NCBI RefSeq assembly: GCF_900129825.1
Contig: NZ_FQWZ01000002.1
Span: forward strand, 490,641 to 554,640
Direction of reading: 5' to 3'
DNA: 64,000 bases
DNA from: Hydrocarboniphaga daqingensis
GTDB lineage: Bacteria > Pseudomonadota > Gammaproteobacteria > Nevskiales > Nevskiaceae
Positions 28,677 through 64,000 of the stretch are shown in pieces. The notes below the pieces were generated by a model that had not been told where the DNA came from, did no database searches, and saw only the letters and a program-made list of their open reading frames with translations. Numbering within the stretch: position 1 is the first letter of the stretch; every line of letters begins with the position of its first letter. The position numbers were made by a program, and so were the translations under genes.

Positions 28677-28906
28677 GTAATGCTTTATCAGGCGGCGCAA
28701 TGCCGCTTGATTCGATTCCCCGGCAGTCAGCGCGCGAATAGCAAAACTGTGGTCAATCGGTCGTGCGTCCGGTGTGCATAGCGTCGGGAAGACAGAAGGA
28801 AAGTGTGCGCCACGTCCAATTCGGTCGCTGCTTGCTCGACTAGTGGCGCGCCTCGATGAGTAGGCTTCCTTGCGAGGAGATCCTCAGCCAACCAGAAAGG
28901 TGCCAA

Positions 28907-31236: not shown

Positions 31237-31252
31237 ATCCTGGAGCCACATC

Positions 31253-43209: not shown

Positions 43210-44592
43210 CTACACCGCGCCCAGCTTCATCAGTGCGCCTTGCGTCAGATACTTGTTGTAGATCTCCGGATCGTTGGCGCCGCTCTTGTAGCGGGCTTCG
43301 AGTGCCTGCACTTGTTCGAGTCGCGTGATGCGGCCGGTCTGGATATCCGACGCGGTCACGTGCGCCCAACTCCAGTACGGATGCGCGCCGTCCTTGACCG
43401 TCTTGTCGCCGGCTTCGTACAGCGTGTAGGCGCCGTCGAACGAGCGATACGGCTGCCCTTTGCGGTCATAGGTGACCATGCCGACGACGACCTGATTGCG
43501 CGCATCGAACCAGACGCGTTTGCGTGACACCGGCGCACGCGGAAACTTCTGCGGCTCGGCTTCGACGATGATCGCCTCGGGTATCAGCTCGACTTCGGTA
43601 TCCCAGAAGTTGTGACCCTTCGGTCCGCCGTGCGTGCCGCGCTGCCAGTTCGGCTTGTCCGGATTCCAATTGCCCGATACGCCGGCCAGAAACGGCCCAC
43701 GCCCGACGATCCGGTAGTTACCCCAGGTATGCAGCGGGTCGCCTGCGGCCCAGGCATCGGACAGATACAGCGCCGAGCCGGGCACCAGCGGCTCGAAGCG
43801 CTGGTCGGTTGGAAACTGGCGGATGCGGCGGAACTCCGGCACGTAGCCGTACAGCAGCGGGAACGTGCTGTGGTCGTAGTCCCACACATTGAGGAACGAG
43901 GTGCCGCGGAAGCTCTGCGGCGACAAGAAGAACACCGACTGAAAGCGCAGCTTGTTGACGTGATCGGGCCAGTACGGGCGCGGCTCCATGACCACCCGTG
44001 CCACGGGCGACATTTCGGCCCAGCCGCCGTCGTACTGAAACTCCACCAGTCCGCTCGGTGCGACGTCGTACTCCTTGAATGCGTAGAACGAGGCGTCGTG
44101 ACGCCCCCAGCTCAGCGTTTGTGCGGCAAACAACTCGATGCCGTTCGTTGGGTTGGGAAACGGATTGCCACCGATCCACGGTTTGCCGTCGGCCATGTTG
44201 ACGACATTGCCCTTGGCATCGAAGCCCGCCTTGCCCGCGTTCTTCAGCGTGGCTTCGATGTATTCCCACGGCGACAGCCGCATCACGTCGGTGGTCGTCG
44301 CCCGCAGCTTCAGCCGGCGCCCTTGCTTGAGGATCTGCTGGTAGCGCACCGGCTCCAGCAGATCCTTGACCACCTCGACGTTGCTGGCGTCGATCACATC
44401 GCCCGCCTTGAGCCGGCCGCGCGTATACGCTTCGATCGACAGCAGCTCGTCTGGATACGCAGCGCTGACATCGCCCTTGTCGGCGATGGCTTTGGACAGC
44501 GGCATCAGCACGCCGGTGGCGAGCAGGCCGCGTGCGGCGTCGGACAAGAACTTGCGGCGCGAATAGTCGCGTGTGTAGCGGATCGGCGTCAT
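43210..44592 (-). CDS. DUF1329 protein with Tat signal (first copy)
   Basis: The 460-residue protein opens with a Tat signal peptide: the twin-arginine motif SRRKFLSD at residues 11-18, followed by a hydrophobic stretch to about residue 40. The mature part is DUF1329, an LolA/LppX-like fold, with segments WVGG-like GGNPFPNP, FRRIRQFPTDQRFEPLVPGS and EVELIPEAIIVEAEP, and a C-terminus of EIYNKYLTQGALMKLG. DUF1329 proteins occur with DUF1302 proteins and RND transporters and are thought to handle lipid-like molecules in the periplasm. It is the last gene of the aldehyde dehydrogenase operon; a paralogue is at 55754. Confidence 0.85.
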   Translation of the reverse strand: MTPIRYTRDYSRRKFLSDAARGLLATGVLMPLSKAIADKGDVSAAYPDELLSIEAYTRGRLKAGDVIDASNVEVVKDLLEPVRYQQILKQGRRLKLRATTTDVMRLSPWEYIEATLKNAGKAGFDAKGNVVNMADGKPWIGGNPFPNPTNGIELFAAQTLSWGRHDASFYAFKEYDVAPSGLVEFQYDGGWAEMSPVARVVMEPRPYWPDHVNKLRFQSVFFLSPQSFRGTSFLNVWDYDHSTFPLLYGYVPEFRRIRQFPTDQRFEPLVPGSALYLSDAWAAGDPLHTWGNYRIVGRGPFLAGVSGNWNPDKPNWQRGTHGGPKGHNFWDTEVELIPEAIIVEAEPQKFPRAPVSRKRVWFDARNQVVVGMVTYDRKGQPYRSFDGAYTLYEAGDKTVKDGAHPYWSWAHVTASDIQTGRITRLEQVQALEARYKSGANDPEIYNKYLTQGALMKLGAV

Positions 44593-44608: not shown

Positions 44609-45865
44609 TTAGCCCTGAACCTTCAGCTCGACACGGCGGTTCAGCTCGCGGCCTTCGTCGGTGGCGTTGTCCGACACCGGCTTGCTCTCGCCATAGCCCG
44701 CGCTGCTGAGTCGCGCTGCATCAATCTCCTTGCCGACCAGATACTGCACGACCGCTTCGGCGCGCGCCTGCGACAAGCGAAGGTTGTAGCTATCCGAGCC
44801 GCGGCTGTCGGTGTGGCCGCCGACTTCGACGCGAATCTGCGGTGCCGCCTTCAATGCATCGGCGACGCCGTCGAGAATCACGCGGGCATTGGGCGTCAAG
44901 CGTGCTTGGTCGAATTCGAAGGTCACGCCGTGCAGCACGATCACATCGCCGCTGGCGCAGCCGCTGATGTCCATCGCTTCGCCGGCCTTGGGTGCGTCGC
45001 AAGCCTTCGCCGGTTCTGCTGCCGGCAGCGGGCAGCCGCTGCTGTCGACGGCGGTGCCGGCCGGCGTATCGGGGCAGCGGTCCATGTCATCGGGCACGCC
45101 GTCACCGTCGCTATCGGGTACCGGCACCACTTCGGCGGGCACTTCGGCGACCGGCGCCGGTTCGGGCGCGGCGGCAGCGGGCGCAAACAAGGACACCGCA
45201 AGGCCGGCGCTCAGCACCACGTCTTCGCGAAACTCGGTGCCGTAAGTCTGGTCGAGGTCTTCGTGGCCGTCGATCCGATAGACCGCTTGCAAGCGTGCAG
45301 CGGCCGGTAAGCCGAACAGCGAAAACGGCTGCATCAAACCCAGGCCCGGCTCGAAGCTGACGCCTTCGTAGTCGACGCGCGTGGCCGTGGTGCCGTTGAA
45401 GCCGCCGGTGTTCTCGCCGACGTTCTGATCGCTGACGTCGAGGTACTGCACGCCGAGCGAGAAGTAGAAGTTGGCCAGCGTCGTCTTCAGCGGGAAGAAC
45501 AGCAGGTTTGCGCCATAGCTGAGGATGTCGGCCGTGCCGTCGGTGCGCTGGTTGTCATGCTGGGCGTAGCCGGCCTGCGCTTCGATCGCCATGAACTCGA
45601 ACAGCCGCGTGCCGATCGCCAGTGTGCCGCCCACCGCATCGTCAACATTGCGCGCCTTGTCGGCGAACGTGTAGTTGACCATCGGCGAGACGTAGAACGG
45701 CCGTCCCATCTGCATGATCGCGCGATGCTCGGCTGGTGCTTCGTACGATTCCTGCGCCAGTGCCAGCCCGCTTGCGCCGGTCAGCGTCGCGGCCAGTACA
45801 CCGTTGAATACACCGTTGAATACACCGTTCGATACACCGTTGGATGCGGTTTTGGCTTTGCTCAT
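44609..45865 (-). CDS. OmpA-family outer-membrane protein with one TSP3 repeat
   Basis: The start is the ATG at 45865, preceded by GAGGAGCTAACC; 418 residues. The signal peptide is odd in that its n-region holds SNGVSNGVFNGVFNGV, encoded by tandem 12-bp repeats. A barrel follows (about 45-260), then a single Ca2+-binding repeat DSDGDGVPDDMDRCP near residue 275. The C-terminal OmpA domain reads VEVGGHTDSRGSDSYNLRLSQARAE. It should link the outer membrane to peptidoglycan. Within the operon it lies between the acyl-CoA synthetase (47 bp) and DUF1329 (16 bp), suggesting a role in passing a hydrophobic substrate across the envelope. Confidence 0.9.
   Translation of the reverse strand: MSKAKTASNGVSNGVFNGVFNGVLAATLTGASGLALAQESYEAPAEHRAIMQMGRPFYVSPMVNYTFADKARNVDDAVGGTLAIGTRLFEFMAIEAQAGYAQHDNQRTDGTADILSYGANLLFFPLKTTLANFYFSLGVQYLDVSDQNVGENTGGFNGTTATRVDYEGVSFEPGLGLMQPFSLFGLPAAARLQAVYRIDGHEDLDQTYGTEFREDVVLSAGLAVSLFAPAAAAPEPAPVAEVPAEVVPVPDSDGDGVPDDMDRCPDTPAGTAVDSSGCPLPAAEPAKACDAPKAGEAMDISGCASGDVIVLHGVTFEFDQARLTPNARVILDGVADALKAAPQIRVEVGGHTDSRGSDSYNLRLSQARAEAVVQYLVGKEIDAARLSSAGYGESKPVSDNATDEGRELNRRVELKVQG
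45798..45845 (-). repeat. Four tandem 12-bp repeats in the OmpA signal-peptide region
   Basis: Units TACACCGTTGAA (twice), TACACCGTTCGA and TACACCGTTGGA run head to tail. Copy-number changes keep the frame, adding or losing four residues at a time before the hydrophobic core of the signal peptide. Confidence 0.9.
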
Positions 45866-50421: not shown

Positions 50422-51642
50422 TCAGCCGGTGATCTCGCGACCGAACACCTGACGGGCGACGACCCAGCGCTGCACCTCGTTGGCGCCTTCGTAGATTTCG
50501 CCGATCTTGGCGTCGCGGTAGATCGATTCCAGCGGGAATTCCAGGCCTGGACCGCTCAGCGTCTGCACGAAGCCGTAGGCGCCGCAGGCCTGGATCGCGT
50601 CGCGTGACAGGTCCACGGCCAGCTCCGATCCCGCAACCTTGGCCATGGCCGCTTCGGCTTCGGCGTTGCCGGTCTTGTCGTAGACCATCGCCGCTTTCTG
50701 ATACAGGCTGCGGCACATTTCCAGCCGCATCGCGTAGTCGGCAAAGCGGAACTGCCAATGCTGGAAGCTGGCCACCGGCTGGCCGAATACCTTGCGCCGA
50801 CTGATGTAGTCCGACGAATAGTCGAATGCCGCTTGCGCCATCGCCACGCCGATCGCACCGATGCCCATGCGGCCCAGCATCAGCGCACTGAGTGCCGAGC
50901 GCAGACCGCTGTTGGCGGTGCCGATCACATGATCGTCGGGCACGAACACACCATCGAAGTGCACGTCGGCGGTCAGCTGCGCGTGATTGCCCATCTTGCG
51001 GTCCGGATCGCTGACGCGGATGCCGGGCGCCTTCATATCGGCGAACAGGAACGTCTGCCGCTCGCCGCTGCGGCACAGCACGCAGATGTAGTCGGCGGCC
51101 ACCGAATTGGTGATCCAGCGCTTGGTGCCGGTGACGCGATAGCCGCCGTCGACCTTCTCGGCAACGGTCCGCATGTTGCCGGCCGACAAGTCGGTGCTGG
51201 CCTCGGGTTCGCTGGTGGCGAAGCTGCCGACGAACTCGCCGCGCACCAGCGCTGGCAAGTAGCGCATCCGCAGATCACCCCCGGCGCGGTTCAGCGTTTG
51301 TCCGACCAGAATCGCTTGCCCGTCGTACAAGGCCGACGCCAGGCCGCGCGAGTAGTAGGCCAGCTCTTCGAGCACCGTGACCGTCGCCAGCGTCGGAAAC
51401 TCTAGCCCCAGGCCGCCAACATCGGCCGGGAACGGAATCTTGTACAAGCCCGCAGCGCCCATCGCATTGAAGATCGCGCGCGGAAAGCCGTTGCGTGTCT
51501 CCGGTGTCGTGTTCAACGCATGCGCGGCCGGACGCAACACATCATCGGCAAACTGGCGAACTTCGCGGCGGATGCGCCGCGTTTCGTCCGGCAGTAGCAG
51601 GTCGTTGAATAGCGCATCAGCGCGGCGTCGTGCAGCGGTCAT
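50422..51642 (-). CDS. Acyl-CoA dehydrogenase
   Basis: The start is the ATG at 51642, preceded by GGAGAAG; an ATG four codons upstream is also possible. The 406-residue protein has the ACAD fold. Visible motifs are FATSEPEASTDLS (FAD and substrate loop), GTKRWITNS, GRMGIGAIGVAMAQAAFDYS, SRRKVFGQPVASFQHWQFRFADY, and the C-terminal IYEGANEVQRWVVARQVFG, whose Glu is the likely catalytic base. It makes the first double bond in beta-oxidation of the acyl-CoA. It is co-directional with the alcohol dehydrogenase 103 bp upstream. Confidence 0.93.
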   Translation of the reverse strand: MTAARRRADALFNDLLLPDETRRIRREVRQFADDVLRPAAHALNTTPETRNGFPRAIFNAMGAAGLYKIPFPADVGGLGLEFPTLATVTVLEELAYYSRGLASALYDGQAILVGQTLNRAGGDLRMRYLPALVRGEFVGSFATSEPEASTDLSAGNMRTVAEKVDGGYRVTGTKRWITNSVAADYICVLCRSGERQTFLFADMKAPGIRVSDPDRKMGNHAQLTADVHFDGVFVPDDHVIGTANSGLRSALSALMLGRMGIGAIGVAMAQAAFDYSSDYISRRKVFGQPVASFQHWQFRFADYAMRLEMCRSLYQKAAMVYDKTGNAEAEAAMAKVAGSELAVDLSRDAIQACGAYGFVQTLSGPGLEFPLESIYRDAKIGEIYEGANEVQRWVVARQVFGREITG

Positions 51643-51745: not shown

Positions 51746-52861
51746 TTAGAACAACAGCACCGGCTTGATCGCCGCGCCGCTTTCGGTGGCGTGGAACGCG
51801 GCGTCGATCTGGTCGAACGGGAACGTGCTGATCAGCTTGTCGAACGGAAAGCGGCCTTGCTGATACAGCGCCAGCAGACGCGGGATGAACTGCTGCGGCT
51901 GGCTGTCGCCTTCGAGAATCGCCTTGATGCCGATGCCGCGCATGATCATGCTCATGATGTTCACCGGCAGCGTCGCCTCCATCGGCGATACGCCGACCAA
52001 GCCGAGCATGCCATTGGGCAGCAGGGCGTCGGCCGCCGTGGCAATCACCGCCGGGATGCCGGTGGTGTCGAGCGCGCGATGGACACCGCCGCCGCTGATT
52101 TCACGCAGTTGCGTCAGTGCATCACGGTCGGGAGCGCGCGGGTCGATCACCGCGTCCGCGCCCAGCGACAGCGCCAGCTCGCGCCGCGCTGCCAGCGGCT
52201 CGACGACGATCACTTGCGCGGCATCGACGGCCTTGGCGGCCAGCAGTGCCGACAGTCCGACAGCGCCGCCACCGAAGATCGCCAGCGACAGCCCAGGGCC
52301 GATGCCGAGCGAATTGAGCGCAGCACCAGCGCCGGTCTGGATACCGCAGCCGAGCGGGCCCAGCAGCGGCAAGGGCAGGGACGCATCGACCTTGACCACG
52401 TTCGATTCGCGGACGATCGCATAGCTGGCAAACGACGACTGGCCGAAGAAATTGCCGTGAACGACGCTGCCGTTCTGGCTCAGCGGTGAACTGCCGTCAG
52501 CACGCGCGCCACCGAAGTTCAGCGGCATGAACTGGTGACAGTAGGCCGGTGCTTCGTGTTCGCAGTTGTGGCAATGCCCGCAGGCATTGAACGACAGCAC
52601 AACCGCATCGCCGGGGTTGACGGACCGTACCGACGACCCGACCGACTCGACGATGCCGGAGCCTTCGTGCCCCAGCACGATCGGCATCGGCACCGGGAAG
52701 CCGTCGCGGCAGACAATGTCGGTATGGCAGATGCCGACGCCGACCATTCGCACGCGCACCTCATCCGCACGCGGCGGTGCAACATCAATCGATTCCAAGC
52801 TCATTTTGCCGCCGCTGCTGCGCACGATGGCGGCGCGCGCGCTGATCGTCGAAGTCATCAA
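51746..52861 (-). CDS. Zinc-dependent alcohol dehydrogenase, aryl/terpenyl-alcohol type
   Basis: The 371-residue protein is of the medium-chain dehydrogenase group. Catalytic zinc ligands are Cys in GICHTDIVC, His-Glu in GHEGSG and Cys in GPLGCGIQTGAGA. Structural zinc is bound by CGHCHNCEHEAPAYC. The Rossmann motif is IFGGGAVGLSAL. The HTD and the GCGIQTGAGA segment resemble aryl-alcohol, benzyl-alcohol and geraniol dehydrogenases. It should oxidise the alcohol made by the hydroxylase at 63481. It has its own upstream gap with the divergent RND gene. Confidence 0.92.
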   Translation of the reverse strand: MMTSTISARAAIVRSSGGKMSLESIDVAPPRADEVRVRMVGVGICHTDIVCRDGFPVPMPIVLGHEGSGIVESVGSSVRSVNPGDAVVLSFNACGHCHNCEHEAPAYCHQFMPLNFGGARADGSSPLSQNGSVVHGNFFGQSSFASYAIVRESNVVKVDASLPLPLLGPLGCGIQTGAGAALNSLGIGPGLSLAIFGGGAVGLSALLAAKAVDAAQVIVVEPLAARRELALSLGADAVIDPRAPDRDALTQLREISGGGVHRALDTTGIPAVIATAADALLPNGMLGLVGVSPMEATLPVNIMSMIMRGIGIKAILEGDSQPQQFIPRLLALYQQGRFPFDKLISTFPFDQIDAAFHATESGAAIKPVLLF

Positions 52862-53164: not shown

Positions 53165-55648
53165 GTGTGTGTGGACGAGACGAATCAGATTCAGCCGCTG
53201 CGATTCCGGCTGGCCAAATGGATCATGGACCGGCGCGGTGCAGTGGCCATCGCCTTCGTGCTGGTGACGCTGGCGTTTGCTGCCGGCTTCCCGCGCGTCG
53301 AGATTCGCACGATCTTCAAGGATCTGCTGCCGCTCGATGATCCGTTCGTTCAGGTCTACAACGACCACCCGAACTTCGGCAATCCGCTGACCATGTCGAT
53401 CATGGTCAAGCGCAAGGACGGCTCGATTTACAACGCCGAAACGCTCGGCAAGGTCTGGAAGCTGACCCGCGACATCGACTTGGCACCGGGCGTCGACCAC
53501 GACCAGATCATCTCGATCGCCACGGAAAAGCTGCGCTTCGCGGAAGCCACCCCGTTCGGCATCGACATGCGGCCGCTGATGGACGATCACGTGCCGTCCA
53601 CCGCCGAAGAAGTCAGCGACTTCAAGCGCCGCATCGAGCAGTCGCCGAACGCGCGGACGTTCTATGTGTCCGGTGACGAGTCCGCGACGCTGATCAACGC
53701 CACGTTCCTGGACTCTGTCGAGTACGGCGAAGCCTTCGACTACGCGCAGACACTGATCAAAGCCGCCGCCGACGACCAGCACGAAATCTATCTTGCCGGT
53801 CAGCCGGTGCTGACCGGCTGGGTCTACCAGCTGCAGAAGCAGACCTACAAGATCTTCGGCGTCACGCTCGGTCTGCTGACCTTGGCGCTGGTGCTGTACA
53901 TGCGCAACATCGCCGGCGTCGTCACGCCGATCGTCTGCGCAGCGGTGGCCGCGGTCTGGGGGTTTGGCTTCATCGGCTGGTTGGCGCGGCCGATCGAGCC
54001 GCTGCTGATGATCGTGCCGCTGCTACTGGTCGCACGCACGTTCTCGCACTGCATCCAGTACACCGAGCGCTATTACGAAATCCTCGGTCACGTCGGTGAT
54101 CGCCGCAAAGCTGCCGAAATCACGATGGGCGTGATGATGGCGCCGTCGATCCTCGGCATCATGACCGACGTGTTCGGCATCGTGTTCATCGCGATCGCAC
54201 CGATCGAGACGATGTACAACCACGCACTGTTCTGCGGCGCCTGGGCGCTGTGGATCATCCCCACCGGCGTGTTCCTGATTTCGATCTTGCTGTCGTACCT
54301 GCCAGCGCCGCGCAATCTCGAACAGATCGCCGGCGGCGAGGCCAAGGAATCGGGCATCCATCTGTTCCAGAAGCGCGTGCTGCAGAGAACCGCACGGATT
54401 ACCCACGGCCCGATGGCGCGGATCACCACGGCGATCGTCGTCGTGCTGTCGATATGGTCGGTGTGGCAGGCGATGCAGATCAAGATCGGCAACCCGGTCG
54501 AGGGCAGTAACCTGCTGTGGGAAGACAGCGAATACAACACCGCGGTGCGGGCGATCAACGGCCACTTCCCGGGTATGAACACGCTGGAGATCATTCTCGA
54601 AGCCAAGCAGCGTGACCCGAACGATCGCATCGCGCGCACGCCGGAAGTCGCCGCCGTGTCGGCGCAGATCCAGGCCATGGTCGAAGCCGATCCGGTGCTG
54701 CCGCCGCGTGCGACGCTGTCGTTCACCGACTACGCGATGGAAGGCAACCGCCTGTTCTCCGGCGGCAACCCGAAGTTTCTGCCGCTGGACCCGACCGTGT
54801 CATCGGTGCGGGCGGCGGGTACCGCCGTCACGTTTGGCACCAACCCGGTGAACTTCGGGCACATCTCCGACTTCGAGTTCCAGAACTCGACGATCTCGCT
54901 GTGGTATCGCGACAACAAGCAAGAGACGGTTGACGCTGCACTGGCCAGCGCGCAGCGCGCCGTCGATGCGGTCGGCGTCGACCACGAGAAGTTCACGGTG
55001 CGCATGGCCAGCGGCTTCATCGCGCTGCAGCAGGCGATGAACAACGTGGTCACCCGCTATCACTGGCTGATCCTGGGCTTGGTCAACGTTGCGATTCTGG
55101 TGATTTCGGCCTATGCCTACCGGTCGATCGTGGCTGCCGTGATTCTGCTGATCCCGGTCAACCTGTCGAACTTCCTGTTGATGGCGGCGATGGACTTGCT
55201 CGGCATCGGCTTGGACATCAACGCGGTCATCGTTGCGGTAATGGGCGTCGGCGTCGGCATCGACTACGGCATCTACATGCTGTCGCGGATCTGCGAGGAA
55301 TACACGTCGCGCGGCAAGCGTTGGGACCTGGCGATCGATGCAGCGCTGACCACGACCGGCAAGGCGATCATGTTCACGGCCACGATCATGCTGCTCGGCA
55401 TCCTGCCCTGGTACTTCCTGTCCGATCTGAAGTTCATGGCCGACATGGGCCTGCTGCTGGTCGCGATCATGTTGATCAACATGGTGCTGTCTCTGGTCGT
55501 GCTGCCGCTGCTGGTCTGGCTGGTCAAGCCGAGCTTTGCAGGCCGCGAAGACCTGATCGTCGGCGAGAGCGTCGATCTGTCCCAGTACCAGAAAGCAAAA
55601 CCAGATGTCGCGCCAGCGTCAGATCTGCATCTGGCCGCGATCAAGTAG
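53165..55648 (+). CDS. RND-family transporter (MMPL/HpnN-like)
   Basis: The start is GTG at 53165 (a second GTG at 53171 is equally possible); 827 residues. A first membrane helix (about 28-45) is followed by a large periplasmic domain. A block of five or so helices comes next, with TFSHCIQYTERYYEI at about 300, then a second periplasmic domain and a second helix block with VMGVGVGIDYGIYMLSRICEEY, the RND motif. The shape is that of MMPL/HpnN transporters, which move hydrophobic molecules between inner and outer membrane. It heads a run with DUF1329, YCF48-like and DUF1302 genes. Confidence 0.9.
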   Translation: MCVDETNQIQPLRFRLAKWIMDRRGAVAIAFVLVTLAFAAGFPRVEIRTIFKDLLPLDDPFVQVYNDHPNFGNPLTMSIMVKRKDGSIYNAETLGKVWKLTRDIDLAPGVDHDQIISIATEKLRFAEATPFGIDMRPLMDDHVPSTAEEVSDFKRRIEQSPNARTFYVSGDESATLINATFLDSVEYGEAFDYAQTLIKAAADDQHEIYLAGQPVLTGWVYQLQKQTYKIFGVTLGLLTLALVLYMRNIAGVVTPIVCAAVAAVWGFGFIGWLARPIEPLLMIVPLLLVARTFSHCIQYTERYYEILGHVGDRRKAAEITMGVMMAPSILGIMTDVFGIVFIAIAPIETMYNHALFCGAWALWIIPTGVFLISILLSYLPAPRNLEQIAGGEAKESGIHLFQKRVLQRTARITHGPMARITTAIVVVLSIWSVWQAMQIKIGNPVEGSNLLWEDSEYNTAVRAINGHFPGMNTLEIILEAKQRDPNDRIARTPEVAAVSAQIQAMVEADPVLPPRATLSFTDYAMEGNRLFSGGNPKFLPLDPTVSSVRAAGTAVTFGTNPVNFGHISDFEFQNSTISLWYRDNKQETVDAALASAQRAVDAVGVDHEKFTVRMASGFIALQQAMNNVVTRYHWLILGLVNVAILVISAYAYRSIVAAVILLIPVNLSNFLLMAAMDLLGIGLDINAVIVAVMGVGVGIDYGIYMLSRICEEYTSRGKRWDLAIDAALTTTGKAIMFTATIMLLGILPWYFLSDLKFMADMGLLLVAIMLINMVLSLVVLPLLVWLVKPSFAGREDLIVGESVDLSQYQKAKPDVAPASDLHLAAIK

Positions 55649-55753
55649 GACCTGGAGTCACCGCGAGCGCGGGTAATGGACTAAGCCGGATTCGCCCTAC
55701 GGCCACACAGCGGGCGCTAGTCGAACAGTTGCTGCTTATTGCGAGGAGAACCA

Positions 55754-57142
55754 ATGCATATCCGCAAGTACGATTTCAACTACGGCCGCCGTGAGTTGAT
55801 GAAGAAGATCGCCGTCGGTGCCGGTGCCGGCGTACTGATGCCGCTGCACGAAGTCATTGCCGCCGGCAAGGACATCAGCAAGGCGTATCCCGACGAGTTG
55901 ATGTCGATTGAGGCCATCACCAAGGGCAAGGTCAAGACCGGCGACTACATCACCGCCGCCAACGTCGAGCACGTGAAGGACCTGCTCGATCCGATCGTCT
56001 ACGGCCAGATCAAGGACATGGGCCGCAAGATCAAGATCAAGGCCACCGAGCGCACGCCGACCAATCTGTTCCCGGGTCAGTTCTACGAGGCGATGCAGCG
56101 CAACAACGCGTCGGGCACCACGGCCAAGTTCAACGCTGACGGCAACGTCGTCACCCACGATAACAAGCCTTGGGTTGGCGGCCTGCCGTTCCCGGACCCG
56201 AAGAACGGCCTGGAACTGCAAGCCAACATGGCGATGAGCTGGGGTCGCGGCGACTACAACCAGTACGCGATCAAGGAAACCGATATCAATCCGGACGGCA
56301 ACGTCGCCTACAACTACGACTTGGTCTGGGCCGAGTTGCAGACGCAGGCGCGCATGGACGGCAAGATCTTCCGCGACATGAAGGACCTGCTGCGCTTCCA
56401 GACCGTGTACTTCACGTCCACGGCCGACGTCGCCGGCAGCTCGTTCCTGAGCACCTGGTACTACGACCAGCGCAAGTTCCCCGAGCTGTACGGCTACCTG
56501 CCGCAGTTCAAGCGCGTGCGTCAGTTCCCGACCAACCAGCGCTTCGAGCCGCTGATTCCGGGCGTGACCTGGTTCCTCACCGATCCGTGGGCGGCCGGCG
56601 ATCCGATGCTGACCTGGGGCGAGTACAAGATCATCGAGCGCAAGCCGATGCTCGGCGCCTACAACACCACGTGGAGCGGCGATCGTCCGAACTGGGAAAA
56701 GCCGGTGCATGGCGGACCCAAGGGCATCACGTTCTACGACACCGAGTACGAACTGGCGCCGGAAGTGGCGATTCTCGAATCCAAGCCGGTCGGCTATCCG
56801 CGTGCGCCCGTGGGCCGTCGTCTGGCCTATGTCGACGTTCGCAACTCGCTGTACTCCGGCAACATCCGCTTCGACCGTCAGGACAAGCCCTGGGTCAGCT
56901 TCGAAACGGGCTTTGGCCAGTACGTCAACGGCAGCAAGAAGGTCGTCGGTGCCGACGGCACCACGCCGGCGTACTCGTGGATCTACGTGATGAGCTATGA
57001 CTGCCAGAACAAGCGCATGAGCCGCGCCGCGCATGCCGAGCAGTGCTTCGGTGGTTACAAGAGCATCTTCAACGGCGACCACGAGCAGATGTACAACAAG
57101 TTCTTCACGCAGCAGGCGCTGCAGCGTCTCGGCCAGGTTTGA
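55754..57142 (+). CDS. DUF1329 protein with twin-arginine-like signal (second copy)
   Basis: The start is the ATG at 55754 with GAGGAGAACC upstream; 462 residues. The N-terminus MHIRKYDFNYGRRELMKK has an Arg pair before a Gly/Ala-rich hydrophobic segment ending PLHEVIAAG, so Tat export is likely. Conserved DUF1329 blocks are WVGGLPFPDPKNGLELQ, FKRVRQFPTNQRFEPLIPG, EYELAPEVAILESKP and the C-terminal YNKFFTQQALQRLGQV. It is plainly a paralogue of 43210-44592, with matching blocks in the same order. It lies 105 bp after the RND gene. Confidence 0.88.
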   Translation: MHIRKYDFNYGRRELMKKIAVGAGAGVLMPLHEVIAAGKDISKAYPDELMSIEAITKGKVKTGDYITAANVEHVKDLLDPIVYGQIKDMGRKIKIKATERTPTNLFPGQFYEAMQRNNASGTTAKFNADGNVVTHDNKPWVGGLPFPDPKNGLELQANMAMSWGRGDYNQYAIKETDINPDGNVAYNYDLVWAELQTQARMDGKIFRDMKDLLRFQTVYFTSTADVAGSSFLSTWYYDQRKFPELYGYLPQFKRVRQFPTNQRFEPLIPGVTWFLTDPWAAGDPMLTWGEYKIIERKPMLGAYNTTWSGDRPNWEKPVHGGPKGITFYDTEYELAPEVAILESKPVGYPRAPVGRRLAYVDVRNSLYSGNIRFDRQDKPWVSFETGFGQYVNGSKKVVGADGTTPAYSWIYVMSYDCQNKRMSRAAHAEQCFGGYKSIFNGDHEQMYNKFFTQQALQRLGQV

Positions 57143-57157
57143 TCCCAGGCTGATTGA

Positions 57158-57195
57158 CCGGATACAGCGCCGTGTTCGCGCGGCGCTGTATCCGG
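57158..57195 (+). terminator. Perfect 15-bp hairpin between DUF1329 and YCF48-like genes
   Basis: CCGGATACAGCGCCG and its reverse complement CGGCGCTGTATCCGG enclose an 8-nt loop. It starts 15 bp after the DUF1329 stop. Only CTTTG follows, with no real T-run, so it may attenuate transcription or protect the upstream mRNA and lower expression of the next genes. Confidence 0.6.
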
Positions 57196-57237
57196 CTTTG
57201 CAGGATGGATAGCGGGACTGTTCATAAGGCCGTGAAA

Positions 57238-58263
57238 ATGATGATTCGAATTCCTCGCTTGATGCGCTCGGTGCTGCCGCTGTCGGCGGTCGCCGCTGCG
57301 GTGCTGGTCGCCAATGCGTATGCCAATGCCAACGCACCGGCATCGACCGCAACGCAGCCGACCACGCTGCTGCGCGGCATCCCGCATCAAGCTCTGTTTG
57401 ATGTTGATTTTGATGGTCGCAACGGCATCGCCGTCGGTGCCGGCGGCCAGATTGTTGTCAGCGGCGATGCGGGCAAGACCTGGGCGCCGCAGCCGTCGCC
57501 GTCACCGCTGAGTCTGCTCGGCGTGGCCACCCGCGGTGCGCACAGCATCGCCGTCGGCCAGATGGGCTTGGTGCTGACGCGCACCGACAACGGTCCCTGG
57601 ACCGTGGTCAAGACGCCGACGACCGAGCGCTTGCTCAGCGTCGACCTGAATCCCTCGGGCCTTGCCGTGGCCGTCGGTTCGTTCGGCACCGTGCTGCGCT
57701 CCACTGACCACGGTGCGAGCTGGCAGGAAGCCACGCCCGATTGGCATGGCTTGTTCGCGTCCGAATCGGCAACGCTCGGCGATGGCTTTCGTCCGCACGT
57801 GTTTGCGGTGCAGGTGGATGACGACGGTCTGGTGACGATTGCCGGCGAAGTGTCGATGGTGCTGCGTGCCCGCGATGCACTCGGCTGGCGCGTGGTGCAT
57901 CAGGGTGCCGTCAATGAGGGCCGCTTGGACCCGTCGCTGTTCGCGATGCAGATCCGCCGCGACGGTGTCGGCTTCGCGGTCGGCCAGTCCGGCTTGATGC
58001 TGAAGACCACCGATGGCGGCGAGCAGTGGGCACCAATCGCCAGCGGCAGCACCGGCTTGTTGCTGAGCGTGGAGACGCGTGACCGCAACGTGCTGGTCAC
58101 CGGCATGCGCGAGATGCGTCGCAGCCATGACGACGGCCAGACCTGGACGCCGGTCACTGGTGGCGACATCGCCACCGCCTGGTACTCGGCGGCCGTGCAG
58201 CCCGAAGGCAGTCCGCAGGTTCTGGTCGCAGGCCAGGCCGGAACGATTCTGAGCATTCCATAA
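57238..58263 (+). CDS. YCF48-like beta-propeller protein (BNR-type repeats)
   Basis: The start is the first of two ATGs at 57238 (MMIRIPRLMRSVLPLSAVAA), giving 341 residues with a signal peptide. The mature part repeats a pattern of about 45 residues, for example IAVGAGGQIVVSGDAGKTW, IAVGQMGLVLTRTDNGPW, VAVGSFGTVLRSTDHGASW and FAVGQSGLMLKTTDGGEQW. Such repeats form a propeller as in YCF48/HCF136 and BNR proteins. Homologues are often found next to DUF1302, DUF1329 and RND genes; the partner function may be assembly of that complex. Confidence 0.85.
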   Translation: MMIRIPRLMRSVLPLSAVAAAVLVANAYANANAPASTATQPTTLLRGIPHQALFDVDFDGRNGIAVGAGGQIVVSGDAGKTWAPQPSPSPLSLLGVATRGAHSIAVGQMGLVLTRTDNGPWTVVKTPTTERLLSVDLNPSGLAVAVGSFGTVLRSTDHGASWQEATPDWHGLFASESATLGDGFRPHVFAVQVDDDGLVTIAGEVSMVLRARDALGWRVVHQGAVNEGRLDPSLFAMQIRRDGVGFAVGQSGLMLKTTDGGEQWAPIASGSTGLLLSVETRDRNVLVTGMREMRRSHDDGQTWTPVTGGDIATAWYSAAVQPEGSPQVLVAGQAGTILSIP

Positions 58264-58338
58264 CGCCCACGCCGCGACGCTGCACCACGCCAGCGTCGCG
58301 TAGCACGGGTATAGCAAGACACTGGAGAGGAGATCCGC

Positions 58339-60363
58339 ATGAACAATGGGGGTAAGGGGGCACTACGTCGTGCAGGCCTGGCAACGACACTGGCGACGGC
58401 CGCATTGGCCGCGCCGAGCGCGCAGGCCGGCATCTTCGGCGACGACTTCAGCTGGGACATCGGCGGCTTCGTCCGTCAGGAAACGGCGGTCAGTACGGTC
58501 GGTATCGAAAACCCGAACAACCAGGGCGGCAACTTCCTGCAGAACCAGACTGCGACGCGGCAGGCCTTCCTGCCGCCGGGTCTGCTGCCGGGTGGGCAGC
58601 TGATCAACTGGGGTGACATCCCGCTGCCGTATCGCAGCGACGTCAAGCGGTCGGATTTCGTCGACAGCACCGACAACGACTTCAACTGGGTCGTGCTGCG
58701 TGGCGAAGTCGAGCTGGGCGCCAAGTTCGGCGAGCACTGGGACTTCGTCGCCCGACTGCGCGCGCTGTACCAGCCCGACGTCTACGACGACTTCAACGCC
58801 AACAGCCTCGACGGGCTGCAGGGTGGCATCGACGGTGGTGATCCGCGGCTGTATCACGGCAAGGTCAACTACTTCGACTACTTCACCGAGAGCGGCAAGC
58901 GCGGCAATCCGCTGGAGTGGACCGGTCGCAACTACCAGGCCTATTTCCCGGCGATGGTGCTCAACTACCGCGATGGGGGTTTGAACGTCCGCGTCGGCAA
59001 CCAGACCATCGCCTGGGGTCAGTCGATCTACCTGCGCGTATTCGACGTGCCCAACGGTATCGACCTGCGTCGTCACTTGATTCTCGACCGCGGCCTCGAG
59101 GAGTTCTCCGACAAGCGCGTGCCGATGCTGTCAGCGCGCATGACCTACCAGGTCACCGACTCGATCCTCGCTGACGCCTACGTCGGCAAGTTCCAGCCTT
59201 CGGTGTTCGGCAATCCCGGCACGCCGTACAACGTGATTCCGGTGCAGTTCACCGTGCACGACCTGTACGAGCCGAGCTTGAACGACACGCGCTTCAGCGG
59301 CGGCATGCGCTTGAAGGGCGACTATGGTGACTGGGGCTGGCAGGCCGCCTACGTCAACCGCGTCAATCCGGACGGCGTGTTCCGCTGGACCAATAGCAAT
59401 GTCGAAAAACCGCTGCAGGGCGGCCCTGGCAGTCTAGCTTCGCTGGTCAACACCGCGTATGCCGCCAAGTTGCCGGCGGCGGCTTGCGGCGCCAACTACG
59501 ATCCGTCGCTGTGCCGTCGTTACGCCAACACCGGCGAAGCGATTGCCAACAGCCCGCTCGAAGCCTCACCCGGCGGCGTCTATAGCGCCGACGAGTGGTT
59601 TACGTATGCCGGCCACGTGCGCCTCAACGGCGTCACCGGCTTGAACGCGGCGATCAACGACTTCGATGGATCGCAGGACTTGTACGCCACCCCGGTCGAG
59701 AACTACGAGCAGGCCGCAGCCCAGCTCAACACCTTCTTCATCGGTGCCGGCGGCAGCTTGCGCGGCCACATCGCACGCGAGTACTTCCGCGAAGACGTGA
59801 TCATGCTTGGCGGCAGCTACGTCAATTCCAGCGACAACGACTTCCTCAACGAGCTGATCTTCAACCTCGAAGCGCAGTACATCCCGAACCGCACGTTTAC
59901 CGCGACTGACCTCGGCAAGAACTTCAAGCAGACCGACGAGTACACGATCTCGCTGGTGGTCGACAAATGGCACCGCTTCTTCAACGAGTTCCCGGGCACC
60001 TACATCGTGTTCGAGGCGCTGACGAAGAACCGCAGCGACTTGGTCGGCCGTTTGCTGGAAGGCTACGGCGGCACCAAGGAGCGCGCTGCACCCGGCAAGA
60101 AGGGCAATGCCAACTACCTGGTGCTCGGCTTCCTGCAGCCCTGGCCGAACAAGCTCTACGAGCTGGAGTTCGCGACGCTGTTCGACCCGGACGGCGGCAT
60201 CTTCGTGCAGCCGGGCGTGCGCTGGCATCCAGGCGGCGACGTCACCGTCGAAGGTTTCTACAACTACACCAATGGGCACCTCTGGGGTAAGAAGAACAAC
60301 AACCTGATCGACGGTCTGGACTTCGCCCAGGAATTCACGCTGCGCCTGAGCTACCAGTTCTGA
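58339..60363 (+). CDS. DUF1302 outer-membrane protein
   Basis: The 674-residue protein, with a GGAGAGGAG ribosome-binding site, begins with a signal peptide ending APSAQA-GIFG. The DUF1302 body has the segments FSWDIGGFVRQETAV, DFNWVVLRGEVELGAKFGEHWDF, NVRVGNQTIAWGQS and KADAYVGKFQP-like DAYVGKFQPSVF, and ends LRLSYQF as an outer-membrane barrel would. DUF1302 proteins are found in gene sets for growth on terpenoids, sterols and other hydrophobic compounds with DUF1329 and RND partners. It closes the run, with a terminator after it. Confidence 0.88.
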   Translation: MNNGGKGALRRAGLATTLATAALAAPSAQAGIFGDDFSWDIGGFVRQETAVSTVGIENPNNQGGNFLQNQTATRQAFLPPGLLPGGQLINWGDIPLPYRSDVKRSDFVDSTDNDFNWVVLRGEVELGAKFGEHWDFVARLRALYQPDVYDDFNANSLDGLQGGIDGGDPRLYHGKVNYFDYFTESGKRGNPLEWTGRNYQAYFPAMVLNYRDGGLNVRVGNQTIAWGQSIYLRVFDVPNGIDLRRHLILDRGLEEFSDKRVPMLSARMTYQVTDSILADAYVGKFQPSVFGNPGTPYNVIPVQFTVHDLYEPSLNDTRFSGGMRLKGDYGDWGWQAAYVNRVNPDGVFRWTNSNVEKPLQGGPGSLASLVNTAYAAKLPAAACGANYDPSLCRRYANTGEAIANSPLEASPGGVYSADEWFTYAGHVRLNGVTGLNAAINDFDGSQDLYATPVENYEQAAAQLNTFFIGAGGSLRGHIAREYFREDVIMLGGSYVNSSDNDFLNELIFNLEAQYIPNRTFTATDLGKNFKQTDEYTISLVVDKWHRFFNEFPGTYIVFEALTKNRSDLVGRLLEGYGGTKERAAPGKKGNANYLVLGFLQPWPNKLYELEFATLFDPDGGIFVQPGVRWHPGGDVTVEGFYNYTNGHLWGKKNNNLIDGLDFAQEFTLRLSYQF

Positions 60364-60471: not shown

Positions 60472-63303
60472 ATGCCGCTACGCATCTCGACGATCGGCTC
60501 GGTATTGCCGACCTCTCGGCGGCTCCCGCTGGCCTTGCGCGGCTTGCCAAGCCGCGGCGGGTCCGCGCAGGCTATGCGCCCCATGTCGATCGCCACGGTC
60601 CATAGCCCGCCGTTTTTCGCCTTTTCGCCGGTGCGCACGCGCATGCTCGACGAACTGGGCGCGGCGCTGCGGCCGCCGGCCAAGCTGCTGGCGGTATCGG
60701 CACCGACCGGATACGGCAAGACGGTTTTTCTGTCGCGGTTGTTCGACCATTACCGCAGCAGCGGCGCCGAATGCCAGTGGCTGGCGCTCGATGACCGCGA
60801 CACCACGGTCGAGCGCCTGCTGACGCTGCTCGAGGGTGTGCTGCTTCCGGGAATCGAATCGGTCGATCCAGGTCAGGCGCTGCATCAGGGAGACCGGTCG
60901 GTCGACGAACGCATCGCGGCTGTCATCGAGTCGCTGTCGCATGCGCACGACCCGGCCGTTTTGTTCATCGACAACCTGAACTACTGCGTCGACGAAACCT
61001 TGTCGGCGTTGATCGATGCACTGGTGTTCAGCACGCCGTCCTGGGTGCATCTGGTGTTGTCGAGCACCACCGACCTTCCGTTCGACCGCGCCCGCGCGCG
61101 ACTCGAAGGGCGTGTGCGCAGCATCGGCTACAACGACCTAAGCCTCAATGCCGGCGAGATCGCGCAGCTGCTCGGCACCGAGTTGAGCGAGCGCATCGGT
61201 GCCGTCGGGCTCAATGCGATCATTGATCAGACCGAAGGCTGGCCTGCAGCGGTGCGGCTGATGCAGATCCTGTTGGCCAGCGCGGTCGATCCGCTGCAAG
61301 CCTTGCAGCAGTTCTCCGGCGCCGATGAGGATCTGGCCGATCTGCTGAATCGGCAGATTCTGCATCAGCTCGACCCGGCATCGCGGCAGTTTCTGCTGGA
61401 GATCGCGCCGCTGCGCGTGTTCGGCGTCAATCTGTGCCGACAAGCCACCGGCGACGACCGTGCCGCCGATCACGTGCGCCGGCTGCTGAAAGACAATCTG
61501 TTTGTGATTCCGCTGGACCGCAACCGCAGCTGGTACCGGCTGCATGCGTTGTTCCGCGAGTTTCTGATCGACGAAGCCGAGCGGCAGGTGCCGGCGGCGC
61601 GGCGCTACGAGGTGCTGTGCCGCGCGGCCGAATGGTGCGAGCACGCCGGACGTTGGCAGGATGCGATCGACTACGCGCTGATGGCCGAGCGCGGCGATCT
61701 GGCGGCCGCCATTCTGGAACGTGTCGCTGCGATGTTCGTCCGCGATCGCGGCGATCTCAACCAGTACATCGAATGGGTCGAGCGTCTGCACCGGATGGGT
61801 GTGCGTGGCGGCTGGGAAGTCGATTACTGGTACGTCTGGGCGCTGGTGTTCCACCGTCGCTACGAGTTTGCGCGGCGCCAGATGGAGCTGGTATCGCAGC
61901 GACTGCGCAGCGAAGCGGCAAGCCAGGGACGCGTCGACGAAGCCGAGCACGTGCAGCGTCGCATCGATGTCATCAGCTTCACGATCGACACCTATACCGA
62001 CCGTCATGAGGATGCGCTGCGCCTGGCGATGCGCTGGCTGCCGCCGCGACCCGACGACGATCCCTTCGATGTCGCCACGGTCGCGGCCGGGTCGTGCTTC
62101 CAGTTGGTCAGCCGTCACCAGCTGACCGAAGCGCGCAGCTTGCTGAGGCTGGCGCAGTCGCACATCGCCCAGGCGCAGAGCGTCTACGGCGAATCCTGGG
62201 TTGCGATCGCCAGCGCATCCGTGGCGATCTACGACGACGACTACTCCCAAGTCCATCAGGACTTGATCGGTGCGCTGGCCAAGAGCCGCGCACAGCTCGG
62301 CGACAACGCGGGCATCAGCGGCACGCTGGCGATCGTCGCGTCCAAGTCGGCCATCGAATCGGGCCGCGACGACGAGGCTCGCGAGCTGTTGATGCTCGGC
62401 ATGCGCCGCATCGAATCGCACGGCATCGTCGAGACGGCGCTGCTGGGCCTGGATGCGGCGATCAAGCTCTGGAACGGCGACGACCTGCCGACGCTGAACC
62501 GCTACCGCGAAATCGCTGCGGCGTATCCGCCGCGAGCGGCGCTGGGGCTGAGCTGCTTCATCGTGCGCCGCTTACTGAGGCTGGGCCGCTACGACGAAGC
62601 ACTGGTGGAAGCCGCGCAGATCGGTTTGGTGCCCGAGCGCGGCATCGAGCAGCTGGCCAGTGCCGAGTTCGAGCAGTTCCACGGCATGCGGGCCATGGCC
62701 GCCGCGGTGCTGATCGAACTCGACATTGCCGGTGGTCGGCTCAAGGCCGCGACCGCGCTGATTGCCGACGAGACGCGCAACGCCAAGGCGGTCAATCGCA
62801 GCGGTCGTCTGGTCGAGCTGGCGCTGGATGAAGCGGCAATCACGCTGTGTTCGCACAATCCGGCGCCGGCGGCACGGCATCTGGCGCGGGCGGTCAGTCT
62901 GGCGGCCAAGCGCCGTTATATCCGGCCATTCCGCGACCGCGCCGAACTGGTGGCCGCGCTGGTCAACGAGACCAAGTCCAAGGACTGGGGATTTGCCGTC
63001 GAAGAAGAGCGGCGCTTCTTTGCCGAAATCTGCCGCGGCTTGCCGCTGGGTCAGCATCGCGACGACGTCGAGCTGGACGCCGACAGCAGCGTCCACACGC
63101 TGGCCGAGACGCCCACTGCGCGCGAGCTGGAGCTGCTGATGCTGGTCGAGGCCGGTTTGTCCAACCAGCAGTTAGCCGATCGGCTGTCGCTGTCGGTGGC
63201 GACCGTCAAATGGCATCTGTACAACCTGTACACCAAGCTCGGTGTGTCCAGCCGCGGCGCCGCATTGGCGCGGGCTCGGGCCTTGAACCTGCTGGTGCGA
63301 TAG
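60472..63303 (+). CDS. MalT-type LuxR family ATP-dependent regulator
   Basis: The ATG at 60472 gives 943 residues; the first 35 or so are poorly conserved and a later start is possible. The NTPase part has a Walker A APTGYGKTVFLSRL near residue 80 and ILFIDNL-type Walker B (AVLFIDNLNYC). TPR-like helices fill the middle. The C-terminal LuxR HTH (about 880-935) reads TARELELLMLVEAGLSNQQLADRLSLSVATVKWHL with YTKLGVSSRGAA. Proteins of this type (MalT, AlkS) activate catabolic operons when bound to inducer and ATP. AlkS, the alkane regulator of Pseudomonas, shares this layout, and an AlkB-like gene follows 177 bp downstream. Confidence 0.9.
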   Translation: MPLRISTIGSVLPTSRRLPLALRGLPSRGGSAQAMRPMSIATVHSPPFFAFSPVRTRMLDELGAALRPPAKLLAVSAPTGYGKTVFLSRLFDHYRSSGAECQWLALDDRDTTVERLLTLLEGVLLPGIESVDPGQALHQGDRSVDERIAAVIESLSHAHDPAVLFIDNLNYCVDETLSALIDALVFSTPSWVHLVLSSTTDLPFDRARARLEGRVRSIGYNDLSLNAGEIAQLLGTELSERIGAVGLNAIIDQTEGWPAAVRLMQILLASAVDPLQALQQFSGADEDLADLLNRQILHQLDPASRQFLLEIAPLRVFGVNLCRQATGDDRAADHVRRLLKDNLFVIPLDRNRSWYRLHALFREFLIDEAERQVPAARRYEVLCRAAEWCEHAGRWQDAIDYALMAERGDLAAAILERVAAMFVRDRGDLNQYIEWVERLHRMGVRGGWEVDYWYVWALVFHRRYEFARRQMELVSQRLRSEAASQGRVDEAEHVQRRIDVISFTIDTYTDRHEDALRLAMRWLPPRPDDDPFDVATVAAGSCFQLVSRHQLTEARSLLRLAQSHIAQAQSVYGESWVAIASASVAIYDDDYSQVHQDLIGALAKSRAQLGDNAGISGTLAIVASKSAIESGRDDEARELLMLGMRRIESHGIVETALLGLDAAIKLWNGDDLPTLNRYREIAAAYPPRAALGLSCFIVRRLLRLGRYDEALVEAAQIGLVPERGIEQLASAEFEQFHGMRAMAAAVLIELDIAGGRLKAATALIADETRNAKAVNRSGRLVELALDEAAITLCSHNPAPAARHLARAVSLAAKRRYIRPFRDRAELVAALVNETKSKDWGFAVEEERRFFAEICRGLPLGQHRDDVELDADSSVHTLAETPTARELELLMLVEAGLSNQQLADRLSLSVATVKWHLYNLYTKLGVSSRGAALARARALNLLVR

Positions 63304-63480: not shown

Positions 63481-64000
63481 ATGTTGGATTACCTGAAGTA
63501 CACCGTTTCCACCGTCATTCTGGCCGCGACCACGGCAGGCCTGTGGATCGGTGGCGTTTATGTCTGGCTGGGTCTGGGTGTGCTGCTCGGCGTGCTCGGG
63601 CTCGATGCTTTCCTCAAGCCGGATCATTCGATCCGCGACCAACGCTATCCCTGGCTCTACGACGCGGTCGTTGCGTTCAACATGGCGCTGGGCTTTGCGC
63701 TGATCTGCCAGTACGCGTATCTGGTCGGTCAGGACCACTTCGTCACCACCAGCAGCGCCGTCGGTGCATTCGTCACGATGATGTTCGTGCAGTTCGTCGT
63801 CACCGCGCCGGCGCTGCATGAGATGTTTCACCGCGAGAACACCGGCTTGCGCTGGTACGGCCGCATCGGCCAGGTGCTGATCTTCGATCCGTGGCGCGAG
63901 ATCACCCACGTGGTGACGCACCACATGGCAGTGGCCACGCCCTACGACCCTGACTACGCCCGCCGCGGCGATACCTTGTACGGGCATTTGTTCCGCACGT
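63481..64000 (+). CDS. AlkB-like membrane di-iron hydroxylase (5' part, runs off the window)
   Basis: The frame opens at the ATG at 63481, after CGGAGGACGACC, and stays open for 173 codons to the end of the window. Hydrophobic helices at residues 8-40 and 68-110 precede the first histidine box HEMFHR (113-118) and the second, HVVTHH (143-148). After it comes VATPYDPDYARRGDTLYGHL, which matches the AlkB segment following its second box (VATPxDPxxxRxGxxLY). It therefore looks like an alkane 1-monooxygenase or close relative that uses O2 to hydroxylate a terminal methyl group. The third box lies beyond the window. Confidence 0.82.
   Translation, partial: MLDYLKYTVSTVILAATTAGLWIGGVYVWLGLGVLLGVLGLDAFLKPDHSIRDQRYPWLYDAVVAFNMALGFALICQYAYLVGQDHFVTTSSAVGAFVTMMFVQFVVTAPALHEMFHRENTGLRWYGRIGQVLIFDPWREITHVVTHHMAVATPYDPDYARRGDTLYGHLFRT

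Follow-up and report, generated by a model that had tools for sequence, protein, structure and literature searches.

The closest described counterpart of the genes considered here is AmeABCD of Castellaniella defragrans, published in 2018, in which a DUF1302, a DUF1329, a YCF48 and an RND gene follow one another within a hydrocarbon-degradation island and are required if the organism is to tolerate hydrophobic substrates and grow on them (PMC6394551; what is said here of papers cited by PMC number refers to excerpts of their text). The same four families stand together, as in AmeABCD-type tetrapartite sets, in a 64,000-nucleotide stretch of Hydrocarboniphaga daqingensis DNA (contig NZ_FQWZ01000002.1, positions 490,641 to 554,640; the whole stretch is hereafter called the window). 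We propose, with a probability of roughly three in four, that the products of these four genes work as a single transporter, driven by protons and spanning the envelope, which handles a hydrophobic growth substrate or its toxic load, whichever the direction of movement. A preliminary description of this DNA, made from its letters, had already suggested such a single unit, which is well supported by co-occurrence, predicted folds and published relatives; its view that the combination is poorly described is contradicted by the AmeABCD work (PMC6394551).

A deletion mutant of ameABCD grows less well on hydrocarbon monoterpenes, its growth on perillyl alcohol, perillyl aldehyde and perillic acid not being reduced; a transposon insertion in ameB is cited as affecting perillic acid too, and the deletion mutant treated with carbonyl cyanide m-chlorophenylhydrazone accumulates slightly more Nile Red (PMC6394551). 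The RND of AmeABCD is assigned to HAE3, and composition and organisation of the AmeD lineage are described as conserved (PMC6394551). The window departs from the published A-B-C-D order (DUF1302-DUF1329-YCF48-RND) in that its genes run RND-DUF1329-YCF48-DUF1302, and its carrier bears a twin arginine, whereas AmeB is described as predicted periplasmic (PMC6394551).

In Pseudomonas putida, the DUF1302 and DUF1329 proteins PP_0765 and PP_0766, the RND-type PP_2019 and the periplasmic PP_2018 are needed on Tween 20, with co-folding strongest for the contact between PP_2018 and PP_2019 (PMC10866462). The likeness to the window lies in DUF1302, DUF1329 and RND proteins acting jointly with a periplasmic partner in growth on Tween 20; the difference lies in the two loci that these genes occupy, whereas the window set is joined (separate RND-YCF48 pairs do exist in the same genome, on contigs C2 and C9). 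The benzene degrader ORM2a, which belongs to the Desulfobacterota, highly expresses a "Nanopod" cluster that joins a porin-like protein to DUF1329, YCF48 and MMPL, for which the authors propose movement of benzene and leave the direction open (PMC13101534); likened to the window by the families described, the cluster differs in having two extra genes in between. In Thalassolituus oleivorans, TOL_3187/TOL_3188 comprise an MMPL protein that contains a LolA-like domain and is up 42-fold on n-C28, and an adjoining predicted porin detected only on n-C28; the MMPL protein is suggested by the authors to help to place the porin, and the porin to let long-chain alkanes through (PMC6304351). Compared by description, this pair, which n-C28 induces, shares with the window MMPL and LolA-like domains next to a predicted porin, and differs in that both domains are fused in a single protein and that the excerpt names neither YCF48 nor DUF1302. 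A DUF1302 protein has also been detected in the outer-membrane fraction of Delftia (PMC3110197), and DUF1302 and DUF1329 adjoin a phenol hydroxylase cluster (PMC7012976).

The four-gene cassette and its conservation

The four co-directional genes lie on the + strand, where the preliminary description had placed them, and each of the four Pfam matches is above its cut-off. Gene D (53171..55648, alternative start 53165; GTG start, 825 aa) encodes an MMPL/RND inner-membrane transporter (Pfam MMPL E 9e-20), B (55754..57142, alternative start 55739) a DUF1329 protein (E 1e-50), C (57262..58263, alternative start 57154) a YCF48/PSII_BNR beta-propeller (E 4e-13, 49.6 bits versus a cut-off of 27) and A (58339..60363) a DUF1302 outer-membrane beta-barrel (E 3e-21, 76.4 bits versus 23.2). 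For the RND, DUF1329 and YCF48 genes, 53171, 55754 and 57262 are the likelier starts, and with the called starts the gaps D-B, B-C, C-A and A-regulator measure 105, 119, 75 and 210 bases. The N-terminus of B, NYGRRELMKK followed by a hydrophobic run, carries a twin-arginine pattern and agrees with the suggested export by the twin-arginine translocation (Tat) pathway, while that of the YCF48 protein reads signal-peptide-like. A promoter and terminator scan returned 1 and 5 sites, respectively, no excess over shuffled sequence.

The best NCBIfam match of the window RND is the HAE3 family TIGR00921 (E 3e-33, 114.7 bits, below the cut-off of 351.9), HpnN and the sterol transporter BstA are among its weak matches, and of the solved structures MmpL3 lipid exporters match the RND profile best. 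MmpL3, HpnN and BstA are comparable as RND-superfamily lipid movers with weak profile matches to the window RND, although none of them is known to have a DUF1329/DUF1302/YCF48 cassette. A classical tripartite HAE1 pump was set aside, no membrane-fusion or TolC-type family being present among the 20 window proteins scanned, and a photosystem link for YCF48 was rejected, as the titles of the RND relatives name organisms that are not known as phototrophs.

The RND alignment was scanned against one genome per species (84,980 species) and the best 80 of 122 relatives were used; their titles include Nevskia, Solimonas, Panacagrimonas, Hydrocarboniphaga, Zhongshania, Spongiibacter, Haliea, Zavarzinia, Parvibaculum and Aromatoleum. 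All three RND partners lie no more than 8.5 kb away in 51 of the 80 loci, namely in 39/52 flanked on either side by 8 kb or more and in 12/28 with shorter flanks. Counted irrespective of strand, the order is D-B-C-A-B in 28 loci and D-B-C-A in 11. When the whole genomes behind the 13 partner-lacking full-flank loci were searched, a DUF1302 of this type was found in 13/13 (as a partial match in genome G059) and a Tat-type DUF1329 likewise in 13/13. Failure of the four families to co-occur in other genomes had been named beforehand as grounds for giving up the proposal; the 51 loci and 13 searched genomes show the opposite, and the same co-occurrence across loci and genomes of relatives rules out a row of unrelated genes assembled by chance.

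Within the family to which H. daqingensis belongs, an RND match reaches 1e-60 in 52 of 58 genomes and is strong in 43 (<=1e-150, a cut chosen after viewing the table). A Tat-type DUF1329 accompanies all 43 strong RNDs and is found in 2 of the 15 other genomes (Fisher p 3e-11, uncorrected for kinship), the two exceptions being G011, which is 84% complete and has a strong carrier match, and G045, whose carrier match is weaker. Across 39 cassettes, the distances of D, B, C and A are correlated pair by pair (r of 0.68–0.86), and for each of the six pairs 0/999 permutations were as high, a correlation of which shared descent alone could yield part. Panacagrimonas perspica (locus L052, genome G063) shows a strong expansion, with 18 Tat-type DUF1329 and 7 DUF1302 matches.

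Predicted folds and subgroup hallmarks

AlphaFold2 models of DUF1329 and DUF1302, built from 22-row alignments, reach mean predicted local distance difference test scores of 84.5 and 81.8, and were compared with the chains ranked highest by Foldseek. The DUF1329 model aligns with LolA3 of Porphyromonas gingivalis (9tp6; background in PMC13103446 and PMC11885536) at Z 23.2 over 237 residues with a root-mean-square deviation (rmsd) of 2.2, with the solved DUF1329 protein 4z48 at Z 20.7 (rmsd 2.9, 235 aligned) and with further LolA/LolB proteins at Z of about 8–12. Because the model matches LolA-type structures, residues 148–462 are predicted to have a lipid-carrier fold; profile and fold both place the protein in the LolA superfamily, with a Pfam DUF1329 score of 173.4 bits versus a cut-off of 23.1 and a weak match to Pfam LolA_like below its cut-off. 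A solved-structure search with a four-row DUF1329 profile returned 9tp6 at E 0.038 and the unrelated 2ahq at 0.69. The DUF1302 model most resembles Occ/OprD porins, best OccK3 (3szv; Z 21.3, rmsd 3.8, 294 aligned), followed by AlgE with Z up to 18.8, and is consistent with a porin-like barrel. These predicted folds suit the roles earlier suggested for DUF1329 as carrier and for DUF1302 in the outer membrane; a common fold, as such, proves no function.

What marks the subgroup of the window is found in both the carrier and the RND. A second Tat-type carrier, B' (43210..44592, - strand; Pfam DUF1329 E 4e-51), lies apart from the cassette, and a twin arginine falls within the first 30 residues of 32/32 relatives of B and 56/56 of B' (88/88 rows within the score and length limits, two further rows without a usable start or match having been skipped). 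None of six other DUF1329 proteins of the genome whose N-termini were read, out of eight above the cut-off, carries it, and the one among them with a doubtful start has a Sec-like start when read upstream. In the window-clade RNDs, transmembrane helix 4 (TM4) carries Arg289, Ser292 and His293 in 87/87 rows and TM10 carries Asp698-Tyr699 in 86/87, with one gap. The Ser-His pair is common to the other cassette RNDs read, and the arginine is shared also with the RND of Aromatoleum aromaticum EbN1. On contigs C5 and C6 the genome encodes two further MMPL proteins, tentatively labelled HpnN-like, which have neither the TM4 Ser-His nor the Arg and carry Asp-Asp in TM10. AcrB has an acidic pair in TM4 and a lysine in TM10, and we read the TM4 Arg/His and TM10 Asp-Tyr of the window RND as a putative proton relay laid out inversely to it. 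A report of the Tat-type DUF1329 subgroup, or of the TM4 Arg/His of its RND, did not turn up in term searches of open-access literature, whose hits were mostly viewed as listings, subscription papers lying outside the scope of those searches.

In a tree of 32 RND rows (29 of 92 rows plus three plasmid rows), the window RND falls into a clade of 25 that includes a Methylibium plasmid RND (support 100/100), with the EbN1 plasmid RND as its sister (98/96). A separate clade (100/98) unites the RNDs on contigs C13, C2 and C9 of the same genome with that of Pseudomonas sp. MPC6; the MPC6 and EbN1 branches are long, and the tree tool warns of false joins. The plasmid of Methylibium petroleiphilum PM1 (NC_008826) carries MMPL-DUF1329-YCF48-DUF1302, an insertion sequence, a hypothetical gene, a DUF1329 gene and then, inverted, DUF1329, DUF1302 and YCF48. 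It shares with the window the gene order, an RND that is 50% identical and of the same clade, and the twin arginine of its three carriers, and differs in being plasmid-borne and in its inverted downstream run of DUF1329-DUF1302-YCF48. Plasmid 2 of EbN1 has YCF48-MMPL-DUF1302-DUF1329 amid beta-oxidation genes, and the MPC6 plasmid has the A-B-C-D order DUF1302-DUF1329-YCF48-RND with a LuxR-type regulator nearby; the DUF1329 proteins of both start without a twin arginine. Since the organisation published for the AmeD lineage is not that of the window, and AmeD itself was not placed in the tree, we do not file the window set under that lineage; rather, it appears to form a distinct variant or branch of the AmeABCD-type kind, in a clade separate from the MPC6 and C13 RNDs. 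The RNDs of loci L027, L034, L035 and L036 belong to the window clade (65–77% identical); in their genomes, DUF1302 and Tat-type DUF1329 genes lie elsewhere.

Surrounding genes and further copies in the genome

Downstream of the cassette lies a LuxR regulator of the LAL (MalT/AlkS) type (60574..63303, + strand), in which an ATPase-like N-terminal part precedes a MalT-like TPR region and a C-terminal LuxR helix-turn-helix; its GerE match is above the cut-off and its TPR_MalT and AAA matches are below theirs. Of the adjoining AlkS/MalT-type regulator in the preliminary description the LAL type is borne out, AlkS specificity being no more than possible; the MalT-like NCBIfam match scores 208.7 bits, below the 537 of the model. 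The regulator is followed by an AlkB-family membrane hydroxylase, of which the window holds the first 520 bases (63481..64000, + strand; full gene L009:122-1249), with its His motifs present and matches to Pfam FA_desaturase (E 2e-19) and to the PDB structure of AlkB, 8f6t (E 2.5e-22). Beyond the window come a plant-type ferredoxin reductase, a thiolase, a FadJ-like enzyme, an enoyl-CoA hydratase and an acyl-CoA dehydrogenase. The reading as a simple AlkS-AlkB alkane operon was rejected, as the hydroxylase adjoins a plant-type ferredoxin reductase and few related loci have either gene (AlkB-like 2/80, reductase 3/80).

Upstream of the cassette, the oxidation enzymes beside which the set had been said to stand are identified on the - strand: a CoA ligase (45913-47469), an aldehyde dehydrogenase (47485-48969), an acyl-CoA dehydrogenase (50422-51642) and a Zn-alcohol dehydrogenase (51746-52858). 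Judged from their families, the surrounding enzymes together could oxidise a hydrocarbon to acyl-CoA and then degrade it. Among them is a FadL/TodX-family barrel (49198-50400, + strand), and an OmpA-family outer-membrane protein (44609..45865, - strand) adjoins B'. Enzymes other than AlkB recur near related cassettes, for which ten recurring neighbour clusters were annotated by one representative each, with antisense-shadow clusters filtered out. Near the cassette, 20 loci have a Hydantoinase_A cluster, 13 have Hydantoinase_B and 9 have ACAS_N/AMP-binding ligases, the loci with hydantoinase-type genes including L039, L040, L042, L043, L045, L051, L078, L084, L087 and L091, among others; read as ketone-carboxylase-like and acetoacetyl-CoA-synthetase-like, these recurring genes would suggest ketone catabolism.

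A second complete cassette, RND-DUF1329-YCF48-DUF1302-DUF1329', lies about 22 kb downstream of the first (C4:572909-581555; L010:1910-10556), and relative to D, B, C, A and B' of the window its parts show identities of 65, 59, 46, 50 and 66%. B' itself shares 65.7% identity with the final DUF1329 gene of this second cassette and 47% with B. Behind the second cassette are an alpha/beta-hydrolase, an SDR, a DUF5938 gene and an AMP-binding/ACAS_N ligase. The preliminary description did not include B', the FadL-family barrel, the second cassette or most of the AlkB-family hydroxylase. A third set on contig C13 has the order DUF1302-DUF1329-RND-YCF48, the RND-YCF48 pairs on C2 and C9 stand apart from DUF1302 and DUF1329, and a window-clade RND on C5 has no recognised cassette partner alongside. 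In total, the genome has 12 DUF1302 and 13 DUF1329 matches, 12 of the latter above the cut-off (four Tat-type and eight others), while a genome-wide PSII_BNR search undercounts propellers, having missed both the YCF48 of the window, which Pfam finds, and one on C9, which BLAST finds. Elsewhere in the window are a type I-F CRISPR-Cas set (Cas3, Csy1, Csy2, Csy3; 25629-32278) and a CRISPR array (32981-37793) with 80 copies of a 20-base repeat core, spaced mostly by 60 bases.

Proposed mechanism and alternatives

From the families, order, conservation, predicted folds and conserved residues observed, we infer a complex, its cargo, its proton coupling and its regulation as follows. The RND would take a hydrophobic molecule from the outer leaflet of the inner membrane or from the periplasm, and the YCF48 propeller, on the periplasmic side of the RND, would assist in handing it on. 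The Tat-exported DUF1329 protein, with its predicted LolA fold, may then shield the cargo across the periplasm, and the predicted DUF1302 barrel may serve as the outer-membrane gate. To judge by its position, the LAL regulator probably turns on, along with the cassette, both the AlkB-family hydroxylase and the nearby enzymes for alcohols, aldehydes and acyl-CoAs. The earlier assignment of YCF48 as an assembly factor stays one option, against which stands the strongest co-folding contact in P. putida, that of the RND with PP_2018; this argument assumes that PP_2018 is the YCF48 counterpart, a name that the paper does not give it (PMC10866462). By the type of the hydroxylase, and by this only, the substrate is probably an alkane, a terpenoid or an alkyl-aromatic, and we consider net movement outward or protective somewhat likelier than inward, with a small share left for neither.

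Several observations weigh against a single transporter. Modelling with AlphaFold2 concerned two single proteins, DUF1329 and DUF1302. For AmeABCD the difference in Nile Red is slight and efflux kinetics are almost identical (PMC6394551), and in P. putida the co-folding contacts of the DUF1329 protein PP_0766 are called weak, while the Tween 20 phenotype is explained by uptake no less readily than by export (PMC10866462). At least one partner is missing nearby in 13 of the 52 full-flank loci (two partners present in 6, one in 3, none in 4), and the RND stands alone in L027, L034, L035 and L036. An AlkB-like match is present in 2 of the 80 related loci and its reductase in 3, so the link of the cassette to an AlkB-type enzyme is not general. 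Finally, the Mantel and Fisher figures take no account of common ancestry.

Inward movement is a sub-case of the transporter claim and the most serious contender: barrel and carrier would import the growth substrate, and the RND would release it into the inner membrane or recycle the empty carrier. The adjoining degradation enzymes are consistent with this, as are the P. putida DUF1302 and DUF1329 genes essential for the use of Tween 20 (PMC10866462) and the induction of TOL_3187/3188 on n-C28 with a porin proposed to pass long-chain alkanes (PMC6304351). However, the ameABCD deletion resembles a toxicity phenotype, partly relieved by acetate (PMC6394551). The neighbouring FadL-family barrel could already provide for uptake, and known RND pumps carry their cargo off the inner membrane. 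We regard uptake as possible, at about one chance in three. More doubtful is its extension to a general RND-driven hydrocarbon importer, or two-way line, of Gram-negative degraders built from RND, LolA-fold carrier and barrel, in which a pre-folded Tat-exported carrier would dock on the RND and the relay would be the inverse of that in AcrB, with the TM4 Arg/His facing a single TM10 Asp-Tyr.

The cargo might instead be made by the cell, as a wax ester, a modified phospholipid or a biosurfactant that readies the surface for oil. The MmpL3 structures matched best by the RND profile, the weak matches to HpnN and BstA and the predicted lipid-binding fold of the carrier all point this way, but none of the ten annotated neighbour clusters (one representative each) is for lipid synthesis and most are catabolic, which leaves such an exporter unlikely. 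Its LolA fold and the weak LolA_like matches below the cut-off could also be taken to mean that DUF1329 delivers outer-membrane proteins or lipoproteins rather than small molecules. A housekeeping sorter would not be expected to be multiplied as these carriers are (four Tat-type and eight others here, 18 Tat-type in one relative), and the AmeABCD deletion phenotypes are substrate-specific (PMC6394551), so we give this role very little credence.

A proton-driven trans-envelope transporter would bear on the still-open question of how hydrocarbons pass the Gram-negative envelope beyond FadL/AlkL-type barrels. The set lies beside catabolic genes in several degrader groups and is multiplied within single genomes, offering four defined, testable parts, and the carrier of the subgroup, which is probably exported in a folded state, could serve in ligand assays; the relevance extends to bioremediation and to biocatalysis with oily substrates. 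Should the importer reading be true, each of the paralogous cassettes in a genome would be devoted to its own class of oily substrate.

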